Positions 13,727 through 23,046 of a DNA stretch of 28,072 nt are shown here, piece after piece (position 1 is the stretch's first letter; the number at the start of each line of letters is the position of its first letter). Location: positions 1 through 28,072 of the IMG/VR virus record IMGVR_UViG_3300008267_000687. One strand, 5' to 3'. The notes beneath the pieces were generated by a model. It was given only the letters and a program-made list of their open reading frames with translations. It made no database searches and had not been told where the DNA came from. Both the position numbers and the translations under genes were made by a program. Origin of the DNA: a virus.

Positions 13727-14039
13727 AATAGAAGAAGTAATTATTCAATGCCGCGTTATAATCTTGTAGTGTCGCCACCAATGGAAATGGAACGTTTATT
13801 GTCGTACCATCGGGTATTGACCATTCTAAACCACCAAATTGTGGATTTGCTTGTAATATTAACCAACCAAAAAAAGGTGTGCCATAATATTCCTGTGATA
13901 TCTTATCCATTCTACTTCTTCCTACACGATAAATGTATCTTTGATCCGAGTTTTTAGGTCTCAAAGGAACAAATGGGACAACGGTTTGACCACCATTTAC
14001 TTCAAAATCCACATATCTATTATAATATTGATAACTCAT
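13716..14039 (-). CDS. 53: Baseplate wedge protein, gp53-like (LysM-type)
   Basis: A 107-residue protein with the gp53/LysM pattern: a beta start (YRVGRSRMDKISQEYYG, about 38-54), then FGWLILQANPQ (57-67) and SIPDGTTINVPFP (about 74-86). In T4, gp53 joins neighbouring wedges at the rim of the inner baseplate. LysM folds here hold proteins together and do not necessarily bind peptidoglycan. Its ATG overlaps the stop of the 1604-residue gene (ATGA) and its end overlaps the next gene by 11 bases, consistent with balanced production of baseplate parts. T4 gp53 is longer (196 residues), so this is a minimal form. Confidence 0.85.
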   Translation of the reverse strand: MSYQYYNRYVDFEVNGGQTVVPFVPLRPKNSDQRYIYRVGRSRMDKISQEYYGTPFFGWLILQANPQFGGLEWSIPDGTTINVPFPLVATLQDYNAALNNYFFYYGR

Positions 14040-17000
14040 AGTTTAAACTTCTTTTTAAGATTGTAAGGATTATCAGTATCGGCATCATTATTAGAATTAA
14101 ACAATTTACTCAATCTTGTTTTATCATCACTACTTGGTGTAAAATCAGTCGTATATGAACAAGTCCTATCAACACCAACGTTTATACCAACAACATTTAG
14201 AATGTCTTTATTAATTGTGTTTTTATTATCATCAACAATACTTAATTCCGTATTATAAGCACTTTCAAAGACCGACTTCACCTTACCAAATTCATCATTT
14301 ATTATTGTAAGTGAAATAGGATCTGTGATACCGTTAGTGATTGCACTCATAAAATTAGTATAATCATTAATATAAACACCACTCATTAACATATATTCTA
14401 ACTTAGATTCCGGAGTTGTAAACCCAAATTTAGTAACAGGGAATATTTCAGAGTCAAATTTGAAGCTTTGAGTCACATAAGGTGGGTAATCCCCATCAGT
14501 TAAAGTAGTTATAAATTGATTACAATAGGTTCCTATTGTTGTTAAGTCAGTAGTCATTACCGAAAGAGTTGAACCCGTTATTTTATATAACTTCGGTTCT
14601 CCCTTTTCAATGAAACCATCTCTTTCAGTTAATACATAATTCAATTTATCTATTGTAAATACATAGTCTTGTTCTAACGTATTCAATGATTGAATTGATG
14701 TGGTAAGTTTAGTTAAAAACGTAGGTGCATATCCACTAACATAGTTTATGTAGTTCTGTTTCAAATCTCTAACTACACTATTTTTAACATTTCTGTTTTG
14801 TTCTAATGTGGATATTTGAGATAATGATCCATTATTGATTTTACTTTGTAATTGTGAGAAGAAAGAAACATACCTGGATTGAATATTTACAGGTGATCCA
14901 AATAGATTAACATCTTGTGGTGACGTATATTGATTGAACTTACCTGTGTTATATTTTAGAACATTCGTAACGTTTTGTAATACCCCATAATTATAATTCT
15001 TAAGTGTATCGTTTAAGAAATTATACACACCATTATAATAATTTTTAGACTGTGTAACAAACCCATCAAACACTTTAGTATATGATATATTACCATAAAC
15101 CACGGTAGATGTTCCCGACGTTGCCGCAGAGGTTGTAGTACTCTTAATTTCACCAATTGTTGCACCACCAAGTGATGTGGAAACCGGAGTTGCTTGTGAA
15201 ACCGATGTGGTTGTCTCAGTTTCAGTTAAACCTAATGCACCAATAAATTGTTGATTGAATTGTTCTCTATCTTCCGTTTTTTCAGCTCTTTCATCATACA
15301 TCTCAGTATTTGCATAATAATTAAACGATAATGCGTTTTGTAATTTTTCAATTGGTTCTTTAAGTCCCGAACCACCAATAAAGTTAAAACTTAACGTAAC
15401 ATCACAAATCATCGGTTGCATACCAATACCTTCGGGATTCAAATCAAAATTTTCAAATTTGAAACTTAAGTTTGTTGGAATAATTTTAGTATTATAGAAA
15501 TCACCAATTCTTAGCACCAACACAGGTGGGGCACCAAACGCGGTGTTTGTTGCAACATCCGTTACAGGTTTTCCATCCAAACCTATTGTTGGTATCGTAT
15601 CACCCGGTCTTACACATTGATTTAAGAATGTCAATCTTGAATTTAATCCTTCAGGTGTCATTGAGTGAAACGTTGGATTAAAATATTTGATCTTGTCTTT
15701 GATTGAATCAAAAACAACAGGATCAGTACTTTTCAATATATCAAAATAGTTACACTCAGATAATAAAGATCTAACAATTCTCTTACTAACATCATTTTTA
15801 ATTTTTTGTTGTATGGTTGTAGTCGTTACAGGTTTTGGTGCTTCCAATGGTAATTGTCCTGTTGTTTGTTCTTGCTTAGGTGGTACCGCACTTATTTGTG
15901 GTGGTGGAGGTGCTTGAGGAATATCACCGGGAACATATTTAATATCCTTAATTGCAACTCTTCTACAAGCAGATGCTTGAACGGAAAATATCTTATTGTA
16001 TGGTATATTTTTAGTATCTAAGTCAGTACAATTATAACCCTGTGATTTAGTCCCTTTATTGAAACTATATAGTGTAGCACTTGATTCTTGCTCACCTCTC
16101 GCAGAACCCGAATCAATTTTCAATCTTCCCGAATCTATGTATGAACCCAAAACATTTTGGAAATAATCTTTAACACTATCAATTCTTCTTTTTGACAAAT
16201 CAACGTTGTAACTTATTGTTGCAGGTGCGGACGCAGAACCAATTAAAGTAATTGTTATACTTTTAGCAGTCCCGTCATCCAAAACTTTCTTTATCTCGGG
16301 AACCAATTTATTACCAACAGTTGTGAAGTTATCAATAACAATATCATCAAAGAAATTTTGCATCTCAGTTTGTGTATTATTTCTTGAAGCAACTTCAATG
16401 AAGGTTGTTTCCTTACTTAATAAGAAATTATATTCAACATCATAAGCACTCGTTGTTTGAGTTAATCTCGTATTTGGATCGGGATAATCGTTGTAAAAAT
16501 AAAAACCTAAGTTTTTAAACTTATCCCAATTTAATTCAGATGGTTTGGTTTGTTGAGGAATAATTGGTGCCGGTTGTGATTGATTAATCGGTTGTGTAGA
16601 TTCCTGTGTTGCAGGATTTTGTGGTGTTGTTGTATTAACAATTGATTGAAAATATACCAAATCCGATGCCGGTATGGTATTATATGTTTGAGCCAATTCA
16701 TACAAATCATATTCTTTACAACCCGCGAAGAAAGAATCAACGATATTATCAGCAGTTTCTCTATCAGTATTCGCCAAAACCTTATTAACAATAAGATTTA
16801 ATATAGATGGGTGATCCACCACAATCTTAAATGATAATTGACCCGATCTTGATGTGTTTTTATAAGTATAAACAGGTTCAGGTCGTCCAATAAATGTATT
16901 TTCATTAAACGACGGTCTTGAATCCTCACTAAATGTTAAACCATAAGGTGGGAACCACATTATTCTACCCCCATTAGGACCTCTCTCACAAGCAGGAAGG

Positions 17001-18847
17001 TCCGACACTCTAAAACCTTCTTTATTTGACGTTCTCCAAGCCAAGTTTTCAATACTAAACATGTATTTGGTAACGTTTTTCTCAACTGCAGTTGGATTAA
17101 CGTTGTTACTTGTCGGAACAATATTCAAATTATATGTTGAAGTTATTACAGAATTAACAAATTGATAGATACTACCTTTTTGTTTCTGTAAATTTTCATA
17201 ATTAATATATGGTTTGTCCTTAGCAAACACCCTACAATATTCTCTACCCGCTTCCGTTCCCGACGCATTAGTGTAAGATATCACCCTAGAACCCTTAGTT
17301 AATTCCTTATACCCATCACTAAATACTTTAGATACTTGGTCAATTGCGTTACCAACGTGGTTAAGTCTCTTAGCACCATCGGGTTGTGAATCTATTAACC
17401 TTTGAGTATCATCTAAAATACTACCCGGTCTAAATTCATAATTAGTTGATTTACCCGCATTGAATTTATCACTAATACTATTAAATGTTGGGTTATTTGT
17501 GGTATAATCACCACCAGGTGCTACATTTTTACCCGCATTTTTACTATATTTCGGTGATACCCATGTGAACCCTCCTTGAATACCCCCCGCATCCTCATAA
17601 GATTTACCCGCAAAACCGTTTTGGATTTGTATATTATTTTCATAATTATTACCCAATACTTCAGGTCCATATACAGGAGCATTAACTTCTCTACCCGTTT
17701 CATCTTTTGGTATAGCACCCGGAGGTGATGTTAAAGATCCCGGATCTTGATCCTTTGAACCAACATAAAAGTTTCCTTTAGTTAAGTTTGATAAATTAAA
17801 CGAAAATATACCACCTACGGCATCATCACTAAACGCGGGTCTAAACTTGTTTTGTTCAATGTTAGATTGTAGTTGGAATTTTTGACCCGATCCTGTATTT
17901 TTTAAGAATAAATCCGACGGTGTTCTACCTCTTGACCCTCTCGTTCCAAACGCCCCCGCAACCGCAGCACCAACAACCGTTTGTTGTGTTCTACCAAGGT
18001 TGTTCTGTGTCATATCCTCATCAAAATAATCACCCGGTATCGGTGATACAGGATAGTAAGTTCCTGCAATTCTGTTAAGAATATCCGCCATTTTACCAAT
18101 AGCGTTTGACGGAACAGTAATTGTCCAATCTTTTGATACTATAGGTCTTTTACCCGCCAAAACTTGAGCCACCTCAAATGGATCTCTAAGTGACTCTAAG
18201 AATGTAAGTCTTCCGATTGTTTCGGTTCTAACATTTTGATCAACCCTCGCCTTTAAATTAGCCTTTAACGCAACCCCAATATCAAACCTTCTTGGTTCAG
18301 AATCCAAAGATAATGTACCATCCGACCCTTGTGGATTACTTGAAAGTAAAACCGCATATGGTGAATATAATGAGGGTCTAAAACTAGGTGGACCCCAATA
18401 CGGTGCCAAAACACCTTTAGACCTTTGTATTAAACCAATATTATACGGATTTTGAAAACCTCCGGGAGGTCCGTATTGGTTGATAATTGACGATGCTTTT
18501 TGATAGGATATACTATAATTCTCAATAGCATCGATATATGGGGGAAATGGTCCATATTCCCCCTTATTAGGTCCCGAACTTACAACATTATTATAATTTA
18601 TAGTTTTATTAAAACCACCATTAGGACCAAATTCATTAATCTTATATAAATTATCAGAAAAAGGACTGTTATCTATTAAAACATCAGGAGAATCAATTAC
18701 ACTATAATCCTGTAATTCGGTTGGGTATGTAACCGCACCACTTGGTGGTGTATATACGCCTGGTTTTCTGTAAGGTTTAAGATTCCTTACAATTAAACTT
18801 TTTCTAATGATCTCGGTTGCATTAAACGATAACGGACTAGTTCCCAT
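14036..18847 (-). CDS. Giant baseplate protein with inserted OmpA-like domain
   Basis: About 1603 residues. The N-terminal part (1-600) is Pro/Gly/Asn-rich with repeated short turn motifs (GPNGG, GPPGG). At about 612-685 lies a tail-protein module: ERGPNGGRIMWFPPYG, an IGRPEPVYTY strand and LSFKIVVDHPSI. A second module at about 1100-1186 (VLVLRIGDFYNTKIIP, ICDVTLSFNFIGG) resembles baseplate/tube-interface proteins. Between them, residues about 805-962 look like an OmpA peptidoglycan-binding domain (ITLIGSASAP, YNVDLSKRRIDSVKDYF, ending RRVAIKD), flanked by Pro/Gln-rich linkers at about 740-765 and 970-1005. The longest open frame begins with TTG at 18850; the ATG one codon later fits better. 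It lies between the tape measure and gp53-like genes, where T4 relatives encode baseplate-tube adaptor proteins (gp48/gp54 role). Confidence 0.75.
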   Translation of the reverse strand: MGTSPLSFNATEIIRKSLIVRNLKPYRKPGVYTPPSGAVTYPTELQDYSVIDSPDVLIDNSPFSDNLYKINEFGPNGGFNKTINYNNVVSSGPNKGEYGPFPPYIDAIENYSISYQKASSIINQYGPPGGFQNPYNIGLIQRSKGVLAPYWGPPSFRPSLYSPYAVLLSSNPQGSDGTLSLDSEPRRFDIGVALKANLKARVDQNVRTETIGRLTFLESLRDPFEVAQVLAGKRPIVSKDWTITVPSNAIGKMADILNRIAGTYYPVSPIPGDYFDEDMTQNNLGRTQQTVVGAAVAGAFGTRGSRGRTPSDLFLKNTGSGQKFQLQSNIEQNKFRPAFSDDAVGGIFSFNLSNLTKGNFYVGSKDQDPGSLTSPPGAIPKDETGREVNAPVYGPEVLGNNYENNIQIQNGFAGKSYEDAGGIQGGFTWVSPKYSKNAGKNVAPGGDYTTNNPTFNSISDKFNAGKSTNYEFRPGSILDDTQRLIDSQPDGAKRLNHVGNAIDQVSKVFSDGYKELTKGSRVISYTNASGTEAGREYCRVFAKDKPYINYENLQKQKGSIYQFVNSVITSTYNLNIVPTSNNVNPTAVEKNVTKYMFSIENLAWRTSNKEGFRVSDLPACERGPNGGRIMWFPPYGLTFSEDSRPSFNENTFIGRPEPVYTYKNTSRSGQLSFKIVVDHPSILNLIVNKVLANTDRETADNIVDSFFAGCKEYDLYELAQTYNTIPASDLVYFQSIVNTTTPQNPATQESTQPINQSQPAPIIPQQTKPSELNWDKFKNLGFYFYNDYPDPNTRLTQTTSAYDVEYNFLLSKETTFIEVASRNNTQTEMQNFFDDIVIDNFTTVGNKLVPEIKKVLDDGTAKSITITLIGSASAPATISYNVDLSKRRIDSVKDYFQNVLGSYIDSGRLKIDSGSARGEQESSATLYSFNKGTKSQGYNCTDLDTKNIPYNKIFSVQASACRRVAIKDIKYVPGDIPQAPPPPQISAVPPKQEQTTGQLPLEAPKPVTTTTIQQKIKNDVSKRIVRSLLSECNYFDILKSTDPVVFDSIKDKIKYFNPTFHSMTPEGLNSRLTFLNQCVRPGDTIPTIGLDGKPVTDVATNTAFGAPPVLVLRIGDFYNTKIIPTNLSFKFENFDLNPEGIGMQPMICDVTLSFNFIGGSGLKEPIEKLQNALSFNYYANTEMYDERAEKTEDREQFNQQFIGALGLTETETTTSVSQATPVSTSLGGATIGEIKSTTTSAATSGTSTVVYGNISYTKVFDGFVTQSKNYYNGVYNFLNDTLKNYNYGVLQNVTNVLKYNTGKFNQYTSPQDVNLFGSPVNIQSRYVSFFSQLQSKINNGSLSQISTLEQNRNVKNSVVRDLKQNYINYVSGYAPTFLTKLTTSIQSLNTLEQDYVFTIDKLNYVLTERDGFIEKGEPKLYKITGSTLSVMTTDLTTIGTYCNQFITTLTDGDYPPYVTQSFKFDSEIFPVTKFGFTTPESKLEYMLMSGVYINDYTNFMSAITNGITDPISLTIINDEFGKVKSVFESAYNTELSIVDDNKNTINKDILNVVGINVGVDRTCSYTTDFTPSSDDKTRLSKLFNSNNDADTDNPYNLKKKFKL

Positions 18848-18864
18848 CAATAATTCATTTTAAT

Positions 18865-18888: not shown

Positions 18889-20628
18889 TTATTGACCCGG
18901 CGCGTTATAAACATCAGGTTCTTTTAATACTGCTTTAACTGCGTTTGAAAATTGTAAATTTTTAGCATCTATTTGACCAACAACTCTATTATCTTGCATA
19001 ATATCCACCCTACCCGTTAATTGGACAGTAACGGGATCAACTCTAACAGTTTCCGGTTTCTTAGTTTCTTTAATACCTAATTGTTCTATAAGATCACTAA
19101 CAATACTTCCAACCGCAGGAACAACAATATTTTCTTTAGAAATTTGTGTTTGAAATGTGGATGCAAAATCAATTGAGGATATTCTGTCAATACTTTTACT
19201 AAAGTTTTCAGAAAAATCAACAATAAAGTCGTTAAGAGTTGTTCCAAACTTATCGTTAAACCCTTCAAGGTCACCCTTAACTAAATCCTTTATTGCATCA
19301 ACACCACCGGTTTCAAATCTATCTACTAATTGTCGTTGATCTCCGGGACGAAATGCCTGTCTAACACCTTCAGTAACAATTCTTTGACCTCCTCTTTGTA
19401 TTTCAATAAGATCTTGGAACACTTTACTACTAGCAATCCCCGACACTCCGAAACCAACTTTAATCGCTGTCAAATTATTGTTCATCATTTGTTGTGTTGA
19501 TAATTGTTCCGCAGCAAAATCCTCTAAGGTTTTGGCACTTGTTGTTTGTGCTTTTATCTTTTCTAAATCACCTTGTTGTAGTTGTGAAACCAATCTATCT
19601 TGACCATCAACTTTAACCGTAAAACCTCCTTTAATCTTATCAAAATTAGCAACACCCGACAAAAACATTTTTGTTTCTTCGTCAATTCCGGCAACTTTTA
19701 ATTCTTTTGATACTTCATTAAGTTGAGCCCTTGCCTTAGCCATTTTAACCATGTTATCATAACTAAGTCCCGTTTCTTCGGAAATTTTCATTAAATCTCG
19801 TCTAGCAGCTGGAGGTATCTCAAATTTACCGGTTTCTTTATTCAAAAAACCCATTCTTTCAACCACACCACCAATAGCTTCTTGTAGTCCTTCAGTGTCT
19901 TCTTGTGCCAAATACATCAACCTAAACGGATCTGCTAAATCACCAACAGCAACCCCTAATCGTTGAAATGTATTTACCGCACTAATAGCACCTTCAGGGT
20001 CAAATACTTTTGACGCAAAATTAAATACGTCGGACATATCAATCTTTAGTAAAGCCGCTTTTGCCGCCATCCTTGCCAAACCATCAACACCCGTTTGAAA
20101 TCCAAATTTATTAGCATTTGATAAATTATCACTAACTTGTTGAAATACTTGATTTGTATTTGCTCCGAATTTTCTAGCTTCAGATAATATGGTTAATGTG
20201 TTTTCACCAAAATTATTCATGGATTCACCAAAGTCAGCAAATTTTACAAAACTTTGTGTAATGGATTGAATACCTAAACCGGTTGCTGTCGCTGCCGCTT
20301 GGATCTCAACCATATTTTTAGCACCAACAACAAAACTATATTCAAGTTCAGAGGCGATATTAGAAATTATGTCAGCCGCTTTTTGTGTTAAATTAGCAAC
20401 ATCGGTACCTTGGTCAATAACCAAAGCCAAATCTTTAGATGCGTCGGCAATAGTTTTGGAAACCTCTCTATAAGTTTCCCTATTGGCAGTCATGTTCTTT
20501 TGAACGGACAGAGATTGCTCATCAAGATTTTCACGAAATTCCTGCAGATTTGCAAAAAATTGTTTGGTAAGAATGTCGGCCAATCCTTGTCCATATTTAT
20601 TTAAATCGTCAAAAATATTTTGTGCCAT
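18889..20628 (-). CDS. Tail tape measure protein (gp29 role)
   Basis: A 579-residue, mostly alpha-helical protein with Ala/Gln/Asn-rich stretches (for example QAAATATGLGIQSI near 110 and AARMAAKAALLKI near 185) and coiled-coil segments in the first 100 residues. It lies directly after the tail tube, gp26-like and out-of-frame extension genes, the position of the tape measure in nearly all long-tailed phages. T4 gp29 has 590 residues; at about 1.5 angstrom per residue the length here predicts a tail near 90 nm. The C-terminus (about 470-579) is more beta-like (VTVQLTGRVDIMQDNRVVG) and may anchor in the hub. No strong membrane segment is seen. Confidence 0.8.
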   Translation of the reverse strand: MAQNIFDDLNKYGQGLADILTKQFFANLQEFRENLDEQSLSVQKNMTANRETYREVSKTIADASKDLALVIDQGTDVANLTQKAADIISNIASELEYSFVVGAKNMVEIQAAATATGLGIQSITQSFVKFADFGESMNNFGENTLTILSEARKFGANTNQVFQQVSDNLSNANKFGFQTGVDGLARMAAKAALLKIDMSDVFNFASKVFDPEGAISAVNTFQRLGVAVGDLADPFRLMYLAQEDTEGLQEAIGGVVERMGFLNKETGKFEIPPAARRDLMKISEETGLSYDNMVKMAKARAQLNEVSKELKVAGIDEETKMFLSGVANFDKIKGGFTVKVDGQDRLVSQLQQGDLEKIKAQTTSAKTLEDFAAEQLSTQQMMNNNLTAIKVGFGVSGIASSKVFQDLIEIQRGGQRIVTEGVRQAFRPGDQRQLVDRFETGGVDAIKDLVKGDLEGFNDKFGTTLNDFIVDFSENFSKSIDRISSIDFASTFQTQISKENIVVPAVGSIVSDLIEQLGIKETKKPETVRVDPVTVQLTGRVDIMQDNRVVGQIDAKNLQFSNAVKAVLKEPDVYNAPGQ

Positions 20629-20653: not shown

Positions 20654-20815
20654 TTAGTTAGTTTTGGGTGTTAAATCCGTGACCAACTTGTTCATCAAAT
20701 ATTTCCTAAAATAAGTGGGCATACGATAAAAATCTCCATAAGAAACATGTAGATGCTTCGCCAAATAATAAAATTCGTCAGATAATACTCTGTTATAATC
20801 AGAAGAAAGGGCGAA
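20654..20815 (-). CDS. Out-of-frame extension of the gp26-like gene (probable +1 frameshift product)
   Basis: A 53-codon open frame, +1 relative to the upstream gene, running from the slippery T-run to TAA at 20654-20656. The peptide looks like a real protein: SDEFYYLAKHLHVSYGDFYR, then MPTYFRKYLMNKLV, a pattern I recall from short proteins beside gp26 in other T4-type phages. It has no ATG before its core; the only near start is TTG at 20830. The overlap contains GAG TTT TTT CGC. A slip of one base forward re-pairs the Phe tRNAs on TTT and TTC, giving a fusion of about 295 residues. It lies between the tube and tape measure genes, where phages encode frameshifted tail-assembly chaperones. 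Independent initiation at TTG, or reinitiation, is the alternative. Confidence 0.65.
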   Translation of the reverse strand, partial: FALSSDYNRVLSDEFYYLAKHLHVSYGDFYRMPTYFRKYLMNKLVTDLTPKTN

Positions 20816-21542
20816 AAAACTCTGCCCCAAAGGCGATATTCAAATCTACCTTTTTTCCGGATGGGGCGATAACTGTTTTCACAAGATCCAATCTTGGTTC
20901 ATTTTCATTAATGAATTTTTTAATGTATTTAGAATCCATAATAGGCATAGATTCAATAAACTTAATAATATTTTCAGGGCTAGTATCATCATTAATACTA
21001 ATAATTGACTTAGCCAATCTTGTAGTCACCGTAGGTGCTTTACCCACAGGATACATCGCATTCATTCTATCCAACTCTGTCATATCACCCAATGTCAATG
21101 GTTTTAATTTTACCTTCACTTCACTTCTTGGTAAAGTTGTGGTCCATGTCCCATCCTCATTAGGTAATTGATTTGTTCGTTTAATATTTAACTCATCTAA
21201 CATCACATTACCCTTAAACTCATTACCAGTCTCGGGGTCAATTAATTTGAATGTGTATTCGGGACCAAACGATGTGTTCCTTAAAAAGATAAGAATAGCT
21301 TCAATATCACCATTTAACAAATCTTCGGGTCTAATTCCCGGTTCATATAATTTTGATCTAATTAGTGTTGTTACTATGGAATCGGAAGGTGCCGACATAA
21401 TTGTGTTTTCATCCGAAGCGGTCAAATATCCCACTTTCACAGATTCCTTTTTATTTTTATAAAAAATTCCTCTTGATGGTAAAGGCACCACATCATGTGG
21501 TAAATTAAAATCAATTTGTCCGTATTGTGTTGCGTCTTGCAT
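20799..21542 (-). CDS. 26: gp26-like baseplate/tail assembly protein
   Basis: 247 residues resembling the T4 gp26-type base plate protein family: LPSRGIFYKNKKESVKVGYL (about 22-41), EDLLNGDIEAILIFLR (about 77-92) and a YTFKLIDPETG stretch. In T4, gp26 belongs to the hub assembly group encoded just before the tape measure. The same position in other phages holds the tail-assembly chaperone that binds the tape measure. The C-terminus (GAEFFRPFF) sits on a T-run where a +1 slip would extend it by 52 residues (see 20654-20815). The ATG follows the T-tract of the gene 19 terminator without any gap, so it has no conventional leader; expression must come through read-through of that terminator. Confidence 0.8.
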   Translation of the reverse strand: MQDATQYGQIDFNLPHDVVPLPSRGIFYKNKKESVKVGYLTASDENTIMSAPSDSIVTTLIRSKLYEPGIRPEDLLNGDIEAILIFLRNTSFGPEYTFKLIDPETGNEFKGNVMLDELNIKRTNQLPNEDGTWTTTLPRSEVKVKLKPLTLGDMTELDRMNAMYPVGKAPTVTTRLAKSIISINDDTSPENIIKFIESMPIMDSKYIKKFINENEPRLDLVKTVIAPSGKKVDLNIAFGAEFFRPFF

Positions 21543-21604: not shown

Positions 21605-22093
21605 TTAATATACCAAGATACAACGATCCATACGTAATGAACAAGATAGAGTCGCTAACTTATCATCACTATATGATGCTTGTGACCAAGATACATCAGT
21701 CAAGAAAGTATTTTCAAGTATCCACTTTTCAACAACAACACCCGTTGGATCTAACATCTCTAAGTCAATGTTTTTCTTATAACCCGCAGCATAACCCATA
21801 CGACCTGTTACAGATTCAGCGTGCAAACGAACCCACTCCATTAATGCCTGTGTTGCCGATGGCCCAATAGGATCCACAAAATCAACTTTAATCGGGTCCC
21901 AATTGAATCTACCCGCAACGAATGTACTTGTATTTAAGAACGGTATTTCTGTACTACCTATTTTTATTGCCGGTCTTCCCGAACTCTGAACATACCATTC
22001 GTTAATACCCAATGAAGAAGGGAATCTTAATATAAATCGGTTATTCCTTTTGGGTTCATAAGGAATAGGCATTTTCATTAACAAATCAGCCAT
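21605..22093 (-). CDS. 19: Tail tube protein (gp19-like)
   Basis: 162 residues, the same size as T4 gp19 (163). The subunit stacks in hexameric rings to form the inner tube inside the sheath. Typical features: RNNRFILRFPSSLGINEWYV near the start, IPFLNTSTFVAG (about 50-61), WDPIKVDFVDPIGPS (about 65-79), then EWVRLHAESVTGRMGYAAGY (about 87-106), a DPTGVVVEKW turn and a final strand ending DRCILVY. It follows the HAD gene by 92 bases, which carry a TATTTAT copy, and ends before a strong terminator. It is expected to be a high-level late gene. Confidence 0.93.
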   Translation of the reverse strand: MADLLMKMPIPYEPKRNNRFILRFPSSLGINEWYVQSSGRPAIKIGSTEIPFLNTSTFVAGRFNWDPIKVDFVDPIGPSATQALMEWVRLHAESVTGRMGYAAGYKKNIDLEMLDPTGVVVEKWILENTFLTDVSWSQASYSDDKLATLSCSLRMDRCILVY

Positions 22094-22185: not shown

Positions 22186-23046
22186 TTAATATTTCTTTTT
22201 TATACCTCCGGTCGTTGAATAAGTTGTTAAATCAACTCCTTCGGGTTTATTTTTTTCAAAATGAGTTTTCATTTTTTCAACGTTTCTAATATCATCATCT
22301 GAAAATCCAATCATAGGTATGAACTTATTAGCAATCTTTTCTTTCATGAAAGCTCTTTTATGAATTTTCTTAGCAATTTTTTTAACGTGATCAATAAAAT
22401 CATTCATAGCATCAATTTTACCCTCTTCGGGGTTTGAAGCACTTCCCGAACCATAACTAACTGGTGAAAATTGACACATATCTAAATATTCACGAATAAT
22501 TTCATCATCCGACATATCTTCCATATCATCAATAGATCTGTAATTTCTTAGATTTTTAATCAAAAGTTTTTTATTAATACCATTGTGATTTGATACTATC
22601 ATATTATATACCGATTCTTTCAGAGTATCGGGTTTGTGACCTCTAGCCGTTATAATAGCAAACACCGAACCACCATTAATCGCTTCAATAAAATCATCCC
22701 AAGCCGGACCAGTATCGGCAACCATTGAATCAATCAAAAAATCCTTATCACCTTCAGTTCTAAAGTTTCTAAATGGGTCATCTGCAAATCCTACAATAGT
22801 TCTACCTTTATATTTAAAGGGTTCTTTACCAATCTCTGTTCGGTACTCAGCAAAATCCTCCGTTCCCATAGGTACTTCATCCCCATCCTCATCTTCTAAC
22901 ATGATTTTGGTCGGCATATAAAGTAAATTATCATCCCAATCAAAAGCATAATACTTCATGTCAGGAGTTCCTTTGTCACCAATCCCCTCGTTAATGTATG
23001 AGGGAATTAGTGATTTTAGGATTCTATTTTTTAATAGATCTTTCAT
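22186..23046 (-). CDS. HAD-superfamily hydrolase/phosphatase
   Basis: 286 residues with the HAD catalytic motifs in order: motif I FDWDDNLL (nucleophile D36, acid D38), motif II IITARGH (T133), a candidate motif III lysine in EEGK (K210) and motif IV GFSDDD (D250-D252). A long insert with acidic and aromatic residues (about 50-120) and a helical stretch (about 165-235) provide the cap. HAD enzymes remove phosphate from small molecules, proteins or nucleic-acid ends; the substrate cannot be read here. The start KDLLKNRILKSLIPSYINE (2-20) is an amphipathic leader ending in YINE-G, which fits a T4-type prohead protease site, so this could be an internal virion protein. It follows the sheath gene by 3 bases, so it is co-transcribed with it. 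Confidence 0.88.
   Translation of the reverse strand: MKDLLKNRILKSLIPSYINEGIGDKGTPDMKYYAFDWDDNLLYMPTKIMLEDEDGDEVPMGTEDFAEYRTEIGKEPFKYKGRTIVGFADDPFRNFRTEGDKDFLIDSMVADTGPAWDDFIEAINGGSVFAIITARGHKPDTLKESVYNMIVSNHNGINKKLLIKNLRNYRSIDDMEDMSDDEIIREYLDMCQFSPVSYGSGSASNPEEGKIDAMNDFIDHVKKIAKKIHKRAFMKEKIANKFIPMIGFSDDDIRNVEKMKTHFEKNKPEGVDLTTYSTTGGIKKKY

Follow-up and report, generated by a model that had tools for sequence, protein, structure and literature searches.

A probable +1 ribosomal frameshift in a gp26-like tail assembly chaperone gene, and the case for changes of frameshift direction in its family

Introduction

Why should a phage gene that ends at an ordinary stop codon be overlapped by a second frame that runs on well past that stop and has no ATG near its beginning? 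The question is raised by a gp26-like gene in a viral DNA of 28,072 nucleotides (IMG/VR record IMGVR_UViG_3300008267_000687, positions 1 to 28,072), a stretch that we refer to throughout, at its full length, as the window. Our answer, to which we give a probability of roughly 0.9 from the sequence comparisons set out below, is that the locus would encode a two-product tail assembly chaperone (TAC) like lambda G/GT, its longer product arising by +1 programmed ribosomal frameshifting.

The precedents are partly familiar. In the passages of Atkins 2016 (PMC5009743) that deal with tail proteins, the G-T shift is described as widely conserved, with T4 excepted, and lambda G/GT has the same arrangement of a short protein and an out-of-frame C-terminal extension near the tape measure gene; however, lambda shifts by -1, whereas for the window we propose +1, with TTT C as the site, and its product begins with a part that belongs to the T4 gp26 family. 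The same passages describe a +1 shift as very likely for the G-T product of halovirus HSTV-2, a myovirus of an archaeal host that we liken to the window by description. It is also in print, in those parts of the literature that bear on the point, that T4-like phages have tail assembly chaperones, some by means of two genes: the PRFect paper (PMC10885494), where it treats these phages, cites Vladimirov 2022 for a short and a long gene in some of them, and the Adele paper (PMC12846349), in the corresponding lines, cites the same study for poly-T -1 sites.

Results

The gene, the overlapping frame and their junction

The elements of the junction, in window coordinates, are as follows.

20799-21542, minus strand: gp26-like gene, short form (TAC-N like), 247 amino acids (aa) in the 0 frame; PF12322, phrog_150.
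20654-20812, minus strand: +1-frame extension (TAC-C like), 52 codons and TAA; ratio of nonsynonymous to synonymous change (dN/dS) 0.09; profile match of 97.7% to the extension of the Mel-JY01/immuto clade.
20813-20819, minus strand: slip site TTT TTT C, read from the sequence; TTT TTT CGN in 75/75 unique window-clade sequences.
20816-20814, minus strand: P-site codon TTT, which can re-pair as the overlapping TTC at 20815-20813.
20811-20813, minus strand: A-site codon CGC, the single CGC among the 17 large window open reading frames (ORFs) counted (8442 codons).
20799-20801, minus strand: 0-frame stop TGA, separated from the slip codon by four sense codons.

The gp26-like frame (21542-20799) ends in ...NIAFGAEFFRPFF*, with its stop at 20799, and the 3' end of the gene reads GGG GCA GAG TTT TTT CGC CCT TTC TTC TGA. 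Across this end the +1 frame is open from just past a stop at 20842-20840 to a TAA at 20656-20654. Skipping one base at TTT C would yield a predicted fusion of 295 aa, of which 52 residues are encoded after the slip, with the junction peptide ...GAEFFALSSDYNR. In the window the extension has no ATG before residue 31; TTG occurs in the +1 frame six codons upstream of the extension and again at its residue 17 (as read in locus L002, which is identical to the window there). An initial annotation, made from the sequence alone, had described a gp26-like frame ending at 20799, an overlapping +1 frame open to 20654 and the junction codons GAG TTT TTT CGC, and all of these are present. Its fusion of about 295 residues is likewise recovered, with an extension of 52 rather than 53 residues, and its remark that no ATG precedes the core of the extension is correct but passes over the TTG codons. 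The +1 direction, frame relation, slip site and product size that it proposed hold, comparison with relatives supports them, and its reading of the locus as a frameshifted chaperone gene has good support.

The frame relation in related phages

Each related locus was called by the frame that stays open for at least 30 codons beyond the 0-frame stop; where both other frames were open it was scored as +1, as happened at 35/204 loci in the +1 sets and at 3/7 named +1 loci. A first scan fetched 21 loci, of which 19 reach the junction (L010 and L022 are partial and were left out), and four further scans (A2 to A5) were run from family alignments, together with 21 loci of named records. A single alignment of nine diverse gp26 proteins proved too divergent to search the collection with, and the scans drew instead on three narrower +1 alignments and one -1 alignment. 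Scan A2 contributed 79/80 loci (L064 partial), A3 79/80 (L172 without a stop), A4 29/38 (L215 without a stop; L210, L235 and L238-L243 partial) and A5 31/32 (L275 partial); A2 and A3 comprise the best 80 of at least 481 and the best 80 of at least 600 relatives. The patterns for A2 include [ED]FFRPFF, so that this set is biased towards a 0-frame FFRPFF, while those for A3, A4 and A5 lie upstream of the junction.

At loci with a usable junction the extension is open in the +1 frame in 19/19 cases in the first scan, 79/79 in A2, 77/79 in A3 and 29/29 in A4, figures that count sequences and not independent events, from sets that overlap (L046 is the contig of L002, L206 is SP-15 and L244 is 121Q). 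The overlap and +1 relation are thus kept in the related phages with which the initial annotation had proposed a comparison. In A5, the scan with jumbo-phage proteins, the extension is in -1 at 31/31 loci, and the named records divide into seven loci in +1 (immuto, Mel-JY01, GXN1, SP-15, LIS04, RM378 and LR756508) and 14 in -1. The two A3 loci not scored as +1 are L136, on a contig that stops 85 bases further along, and L167.

The slip site itself is conserved within the overlap, as expected of a tail assembly chaperone frameshift. An in-frame TTT followed by C or T is found in 154/158 unique +1 overlaps (C in 85, T only in 69); the other four comprise two with TTT A and two with neither. The codon after the slip codon, at 170 unique loci, is TGG in 66, CGT in 40, CGG in 33, CGC in 19 and something else in 12, so that an A-site codon of the UUU_CGN type stands at 93/170, the window being a case of TTT_CGC in an overlap of +1-related ORFs. 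Two loci weigh against a uniform +1 scheme: L167 (2193-2313), a clade C locus, has its extension in -1, possibly through an indel or a sequencing error, and in LIS04 the second TTT precedes A, so that its inclusion in the count rests on the first TTT. The four overlaps without TTT followed by C or T (L227, L230, L232 and L233), in which A follows TTT or TTC stands instead, all keep AAT CCC AGT near the stop, and the Pro codon in this motif could slip +1 to CCA.

Selection and codon use

Selection on the extension was estimated from 85 pairs with DNA identity of at least 72%, drawn from 59 nonredundant window-clade sequences. Beyond the 0-frame stop dN/dS in the +1 frame is 0.09 (the uncorrected ratio, pN/pS, is 0.20), against 0.13 in the last 600 bases of the gp26 frame, figures that are rough since synonymous change is near saturation. 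In the same pairs the differences fall at 0.18, 0.09 and 0.39 of codons for codon positions 1, 2 and 3. The extension is under strong purifying selection, and because of this low ratio and this pattern among positions chance is not a reasonable explanation of the open +1 frame.

Constraint on the 0-frame codons themselves is concentrated at the end of the gene. In 76 unique clade genes there are 71 codon columns with a conserved, degenerate amino acid, in which the most frequent codon has a median share of 0.64. Six of the 71 are invariant in codon, and all six fall in the last 19 columns, where eight of the 71 lie (P 2e-7); without dual-coded columns, 4/4 invariant columns fall among five (P 6e-6). 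As this region was picked with the data already in view, and the genes share ancestry, both P values are guides. The six are GGA (at -14), GGG (at -4), two TTT and two dual-coded TTC. The GGG occurs in 76/76 genes, and the six Gly columns farther upstream use mainly GGT and GGA. The GGA, at window 20858-20856 and 14 codons before the slip codon, is likewise invariant (76/76) and falls within the 5' internal loop of a hairpin described below; judged by eye, a pairing of this codon with TTCTTC downstream is incomplete in the window.

The A-site codon is rare. The one CGC of the large window ORFs is that of the slip site, and CGG occurs in none of them; at the 93 relatives with CGN the codon is CGT in 40, CGG in 33, CGC in 19 and CGA in one, while elsewhere in those loci CGC and CGG amount to 0.4 and 0.33 per thousand. 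At 44/93 the A-site CGN codon occurs nowhere else in the ORFs of its locus. A rare codon in this position fits slow decoding, but this reading is confounded, since the last base of CGN doubles as the middle base of GNC in the +1 frame. CGG and CGC may therefore be present for the Gly or Ala of the product rather than for slow decoding, which tells against the latter role.

A conserved hairpin upstream of the slip site

The window clade has a 5' RNA hairpin at the slip site, conserved with some compensatory changes in its inner stem.

20824-20867, minus strand: conserved 5' RNA hairpin, from RNAalifold, pair counts and controls.
20867-20862 with 20829-20824, minus strand: outer stem (CCCC at 20866-20863, GGGG at 20828-20825).
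20852-20848 with 20834-20830, minus strand: inner stem.

In the RNAalifold consensus of 14 sequences the GGGG forms the 3' side of the stem and its partner CCCC lies 34 bases earlier; the slip codon begins 7-8 bases past the stem. Both CCCC and GGGG are present in 72/72 unique window-clade sequences, although the CC before the Pro codon is supplied by GCC (55) or ACC (17), which account for just 6.7% and 11.7% of synonymous codon use across these genes. The pairs were tested in 38 sequences less than 90% alike, with 500 shuffles and slid versions of the pairing as controls. Paired cells amount to 93.5%, against 86.4% in shuffles and 65.6% in the best slid version; cells with both sides changed number 21, against 7.1 in shuffles; and the covariation score is 0.303 against 0.185. 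None of the 500 shuffles reaches any of these three values, although relatedness can inflate scores of this sort. By a weaker measure there are 14 further pair types, matched by 10/500 shuffles. The pair 28-44 is G-C in 20 sequences and C-G in 12, while pair 27-45 fails in 12/38.

Several results speak against giving this hairpin a general or decisive role. Pairs with a change on both sides number three, which 29/500 shuffles match; sliding the pairing by -3 still gives 19 both-side cells, yet just 38.3% of the cells are then paired; and the weakest pair of the hairpin forms in 42/72 sequences. In 12 sequences of clade C no consensus pairs were found, so the family does not require the hairpin, and mean upstream folding energy, which is -15.4 in the window clade, is -10.0 in clade C and -8.5 in clade D, against -9.9 for shuffled window-clade sequences.

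Other roles for the same bases were considered. Folding the slip site together with some 100 following bases in RNAalifold gave, in place of a downstream stimulatory structure, just a 7-pair stem around the site with no compensatory changes, using the same GGGG. The GGGG might also act as an internal Shine-Dalgarno sequence, but its CCCC partner is equally constant, and this the hairpin accounts for as well; one role need not preclude the other.

A separate gene, or other routes to the same frame

The extension might instead be a separate small gene, started inside or just past the gp26-like gene, as it is annotated in KVP40 and S-PM2; in several jumbo phages, too, small ORFs follow gp26. In favour of such a start, and so against a shift, an in-frame ATG lies upstream in 64/171 unique +1 extensions and an ATG, GTG or TTG in 118/171, and a first start falls within the first 16 residues in 4/171 (ATG) or 13/171 (ATG, GTG or TTG). 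However, in 103/171 no ATG stands either upstream of the slip or among the first 16 residues, and the conserved motif sets in at about residue 2. A separate gene also leaves the invariant TTT TTT, the GGG and the hairpin unexplained, as it does the fact that T4 gp51 is a full-length fused form, and we consider it very unlikely.

The T-run bears on two further explanations that dispense with a +1 slip of the ribosome. The codon before the slip codon is TTT at 140/154 sites, and 12 of the other 14 have only three Ts. Slippage of RNA polymerase on the run, altering the number of Ts in the mRNA, could produce the long form without any slip of the ribosome, and six or seven Ts do stand at most sites; but at the 12/154 with just TTT between other bases the extension is still in +1, and we give this explanation next to no credence. 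A shift of -2 (as in phage Mu) would reach the same frame with one extra Phe, since six Ts let the P-site Phe-tRNA re-pair two bases back, but it is scarcely credible when such re-pairing is impossible at the AAC, AGC, ACA, ACG and TTC TTT C sites (12/154), which keep the frame. The sites with only three Ts thus argue against both as the common mechanism. They also qualify the initial annotation, which had looked to conservation of the T-run: TTT followed by C or T is the constant part, and the long run is not. The preferred explanation is +1 ribosomal frameshifting.

Relatives with -1 sites and with two genes

The usual direction of a chaperone shift is -1, which is not universal (HSTV-2); it is not found in the window and its clade, but it is found in other clades of the same family. 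At -1 loci T_TTT_TTC (29) or T_TTT_TTT (3) stands in register in 32/32 unique overlaps. RaK2-like jumbo phages have a -1 site of the form T_TTT_TT(C/T), and S-PM2, P-SSM2 and KVP40 (TTTTTTC) and HTVC008M (TTTTTTT) have the same -1 layout; all of these share the family of the window protein and differ from it in direction. T4 has two genes: gp26 (short) and gp51 (long) both match PF12322, and gp51 reaches the end of the phrog_150 profile. The initial annotation had placed T4 outside the classical scheme, and this must be revised, as both proteins belong to the family (PF12322, phrog_150) with gp51 as its long form. Frameshifting is reportedly kept in several T4-like groups, a finding attributed to Vladimirov in 2022.

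Profile searches covered 29 records. With phrog_150, T4 gives two full matches and the other 28 records one main match each (immuto a partial one only), with a second, partial match at the end of the profile in S-PM2, P-SSM2 and HTVC008M. PF12322 matches 26/29 records, T4 twice; immuto, Mel-JY01 and SCTP-2 match phrog_150 only. Comparison of extension profiles links the window clade to the immuto/Mel-JY01 clade (97.7%) and the latter to the set of cyanophages, KVP40 and T4 gp51 (92.6%); the window clade against the jumbo -1 clade gives 69%, and jumbo against cyanophage/T4 66%. In a tree of 97 proteins at least three changes are needed for the +1 label, two of them forced by well-supported branches, and three for the -1 label, and T4/cyanophages and RaK2-like jumbo phages form separate -1 groups; T4 gp51, cut to 205 aa, has a long branch and its placement is unsure. 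One -1 tip, L033 (LR756511, from a 595-kb phage), sits beside a +1 relative, and its slip heptamer lies 23 codons before the stop. Counted against our reading are the direct comparison of extension profiles between the window clade and the cyanophage/T4 gp51 set, which is weak (2.5%), and a comparison of four window-clade short forms with T4 gp51, which gave no match.

The annotation of these genes in public records is also pertinent. In the entries examined the long chaperone is unannotated, its tail being given as a separate hypothetical or gp51 gene, or being absent. In KVP40 (L308) and S-PM2 (L307) the extension is given a gene of its own, named baseplate hub assembly catalyst (gp51); the KVP40 entry remarks that its small gene resembles the C-terminus of T4 gp51. 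Sullivan 2010 (PMC3037559), in its treatment of this protein, states that cyanophage and marine vibriophage gp51 lacks the first ~200 residues. The separate gp51 of KVP40 and S-PM2 is likely the tail of a long chaperone.

Family matches and neighbouring genes

The short protein matches PF12322, T4_baseplate, in Pfam (E 9.5e-12; 45.5 bits against a curated cut-off of 24.5) and phrog_150, baseplate hub, in PHROG (E 8.9e-16). The extension by itself has no credible family in PHROG or Pfam searches, and adding it raises the phrog_150 score only slightly, from 59.1 to 61.0 bits; tblastn with its 52 aa alone gave a single weak match (E 0.6). Searches of solved structures found nothing credible, with best E values of 0.71 for the extension and 0.053 for the short form.

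Two neighbours place the gene between the tail tube gene and a gene in the tape-measure position, as is found for tail assembly chaperones.

21605-22093, minus strand: tail tube protein, upstream neighbour; phrog_4542, E 1.4e-20.
18889-20628, minus strand: ORF of 579 aa, downstream neighbour, in the tape-measure position by position only; no family above cut-off.

A sheath gene lies farther upstream (phrog_23, E 3.2e-57), and the large gene that follows in immuto, SP-15 and LIS04 is annotated as a tape measure. Elsewhere in the window, an ORF of 286 aa without a Pfam or PHROG match lies between sheath and tube (22186-23046), and one of 1604 aa (14036-18850), with TTG as its listed start, has a sub-threshold OmpA match (23.9 bits, cut-off 27.2).

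Discussion

In proposing how two products arise from this locus, we envisage that ribosomes translate the gp26-like gene up to GAG TTT TTT and that, while the rare CGC is awaited in the A site, the P-site Phe-tRNA may move from TTT to the overlapping TTC, exchanging a G-U pair for G-C in the third position. A fraction of ribosomes would then go on with GCC CTT TCT and make the 295-aa long form, while the others would stop at TGA after FFRPFF and release the 247-aa short form, presumably the majority product. The mRNA hairpin, which can refold behind the ribosome, probably favours the forward slip; upstream hairpins, according to the relevant statements of PMC6321510, promote +1 shifts by 70S ribosomes and dampen -1 shifts. 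If lambda is a guide, the tape measure protein would be coated by many copies of the short form, and the few long copies would recruit tail tube subunits.

The components of this mechanism have analogues elsewhere. A P-site UUU with overlapping UUC and an A-site CGN are also described for plant amalgaviruses and influenza PA-X in the sections of PMC5052127 concerned with these sites, but those act on eukaryotic ribosomes, whereas the window clade is that of a bacterial virus with a 5' hairpin; the account of PA-X in PMC5009743 states that no stimulating signals are evident there. The Listeria phages PSA, A118 and A500, in the lines that the same review gives them, resemble the window in having a +1 shift in a phage structural gene, but theirs takes place at CCC (Pro) within the genes for major tail and capsid proteins and not in a chaperone gene. 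The gp143/gp144 pair of 0305phi8-36 (PMC2147016) is a two-gene substitute for the G/GT frameshift, as in T4, although it is a different pair of proteins, likened here by description.

Taken at its fullest, our proposal is of a natural phage +1 frameshift at UUU_CGN, stimulated by an mRNA hairpin refolding behind the ribosome, in a chaperone family in which the direction has changed between +1 and -1 on two or more occasions (T4 having gone over to two genes) with the same two-product output kept throughout, and on this we would place even odds. In the open PMC literature (titles and the beginnings of abstracts, with subscription papers outside this scope), the matches listed included none that dealt with a +1 shift or a 5' hairpin for this gp26/gp51 family, nor was a +1 branch with a UUU_CGN/UUU_UGG site, or changes of direction within the family, found in print. 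The kind of system is known; what appears new is the detail, namely its +1 UUU_CGN/UUU_UGG version, the conserved 5' hairpin and the changes of direction.

A UUU_CGN site, known from papers on plant viruses and influenza, recurs here in bacterial viruses in company with a conserved 5' hairpin, and the combination lends itself to studying how RNA upstream of a slip site may drive ribosomes forward. With +1, -1 and two-gene versions in a single family, it can also be asked what selects the direction of a frameshift and what holds the ratio of its products.
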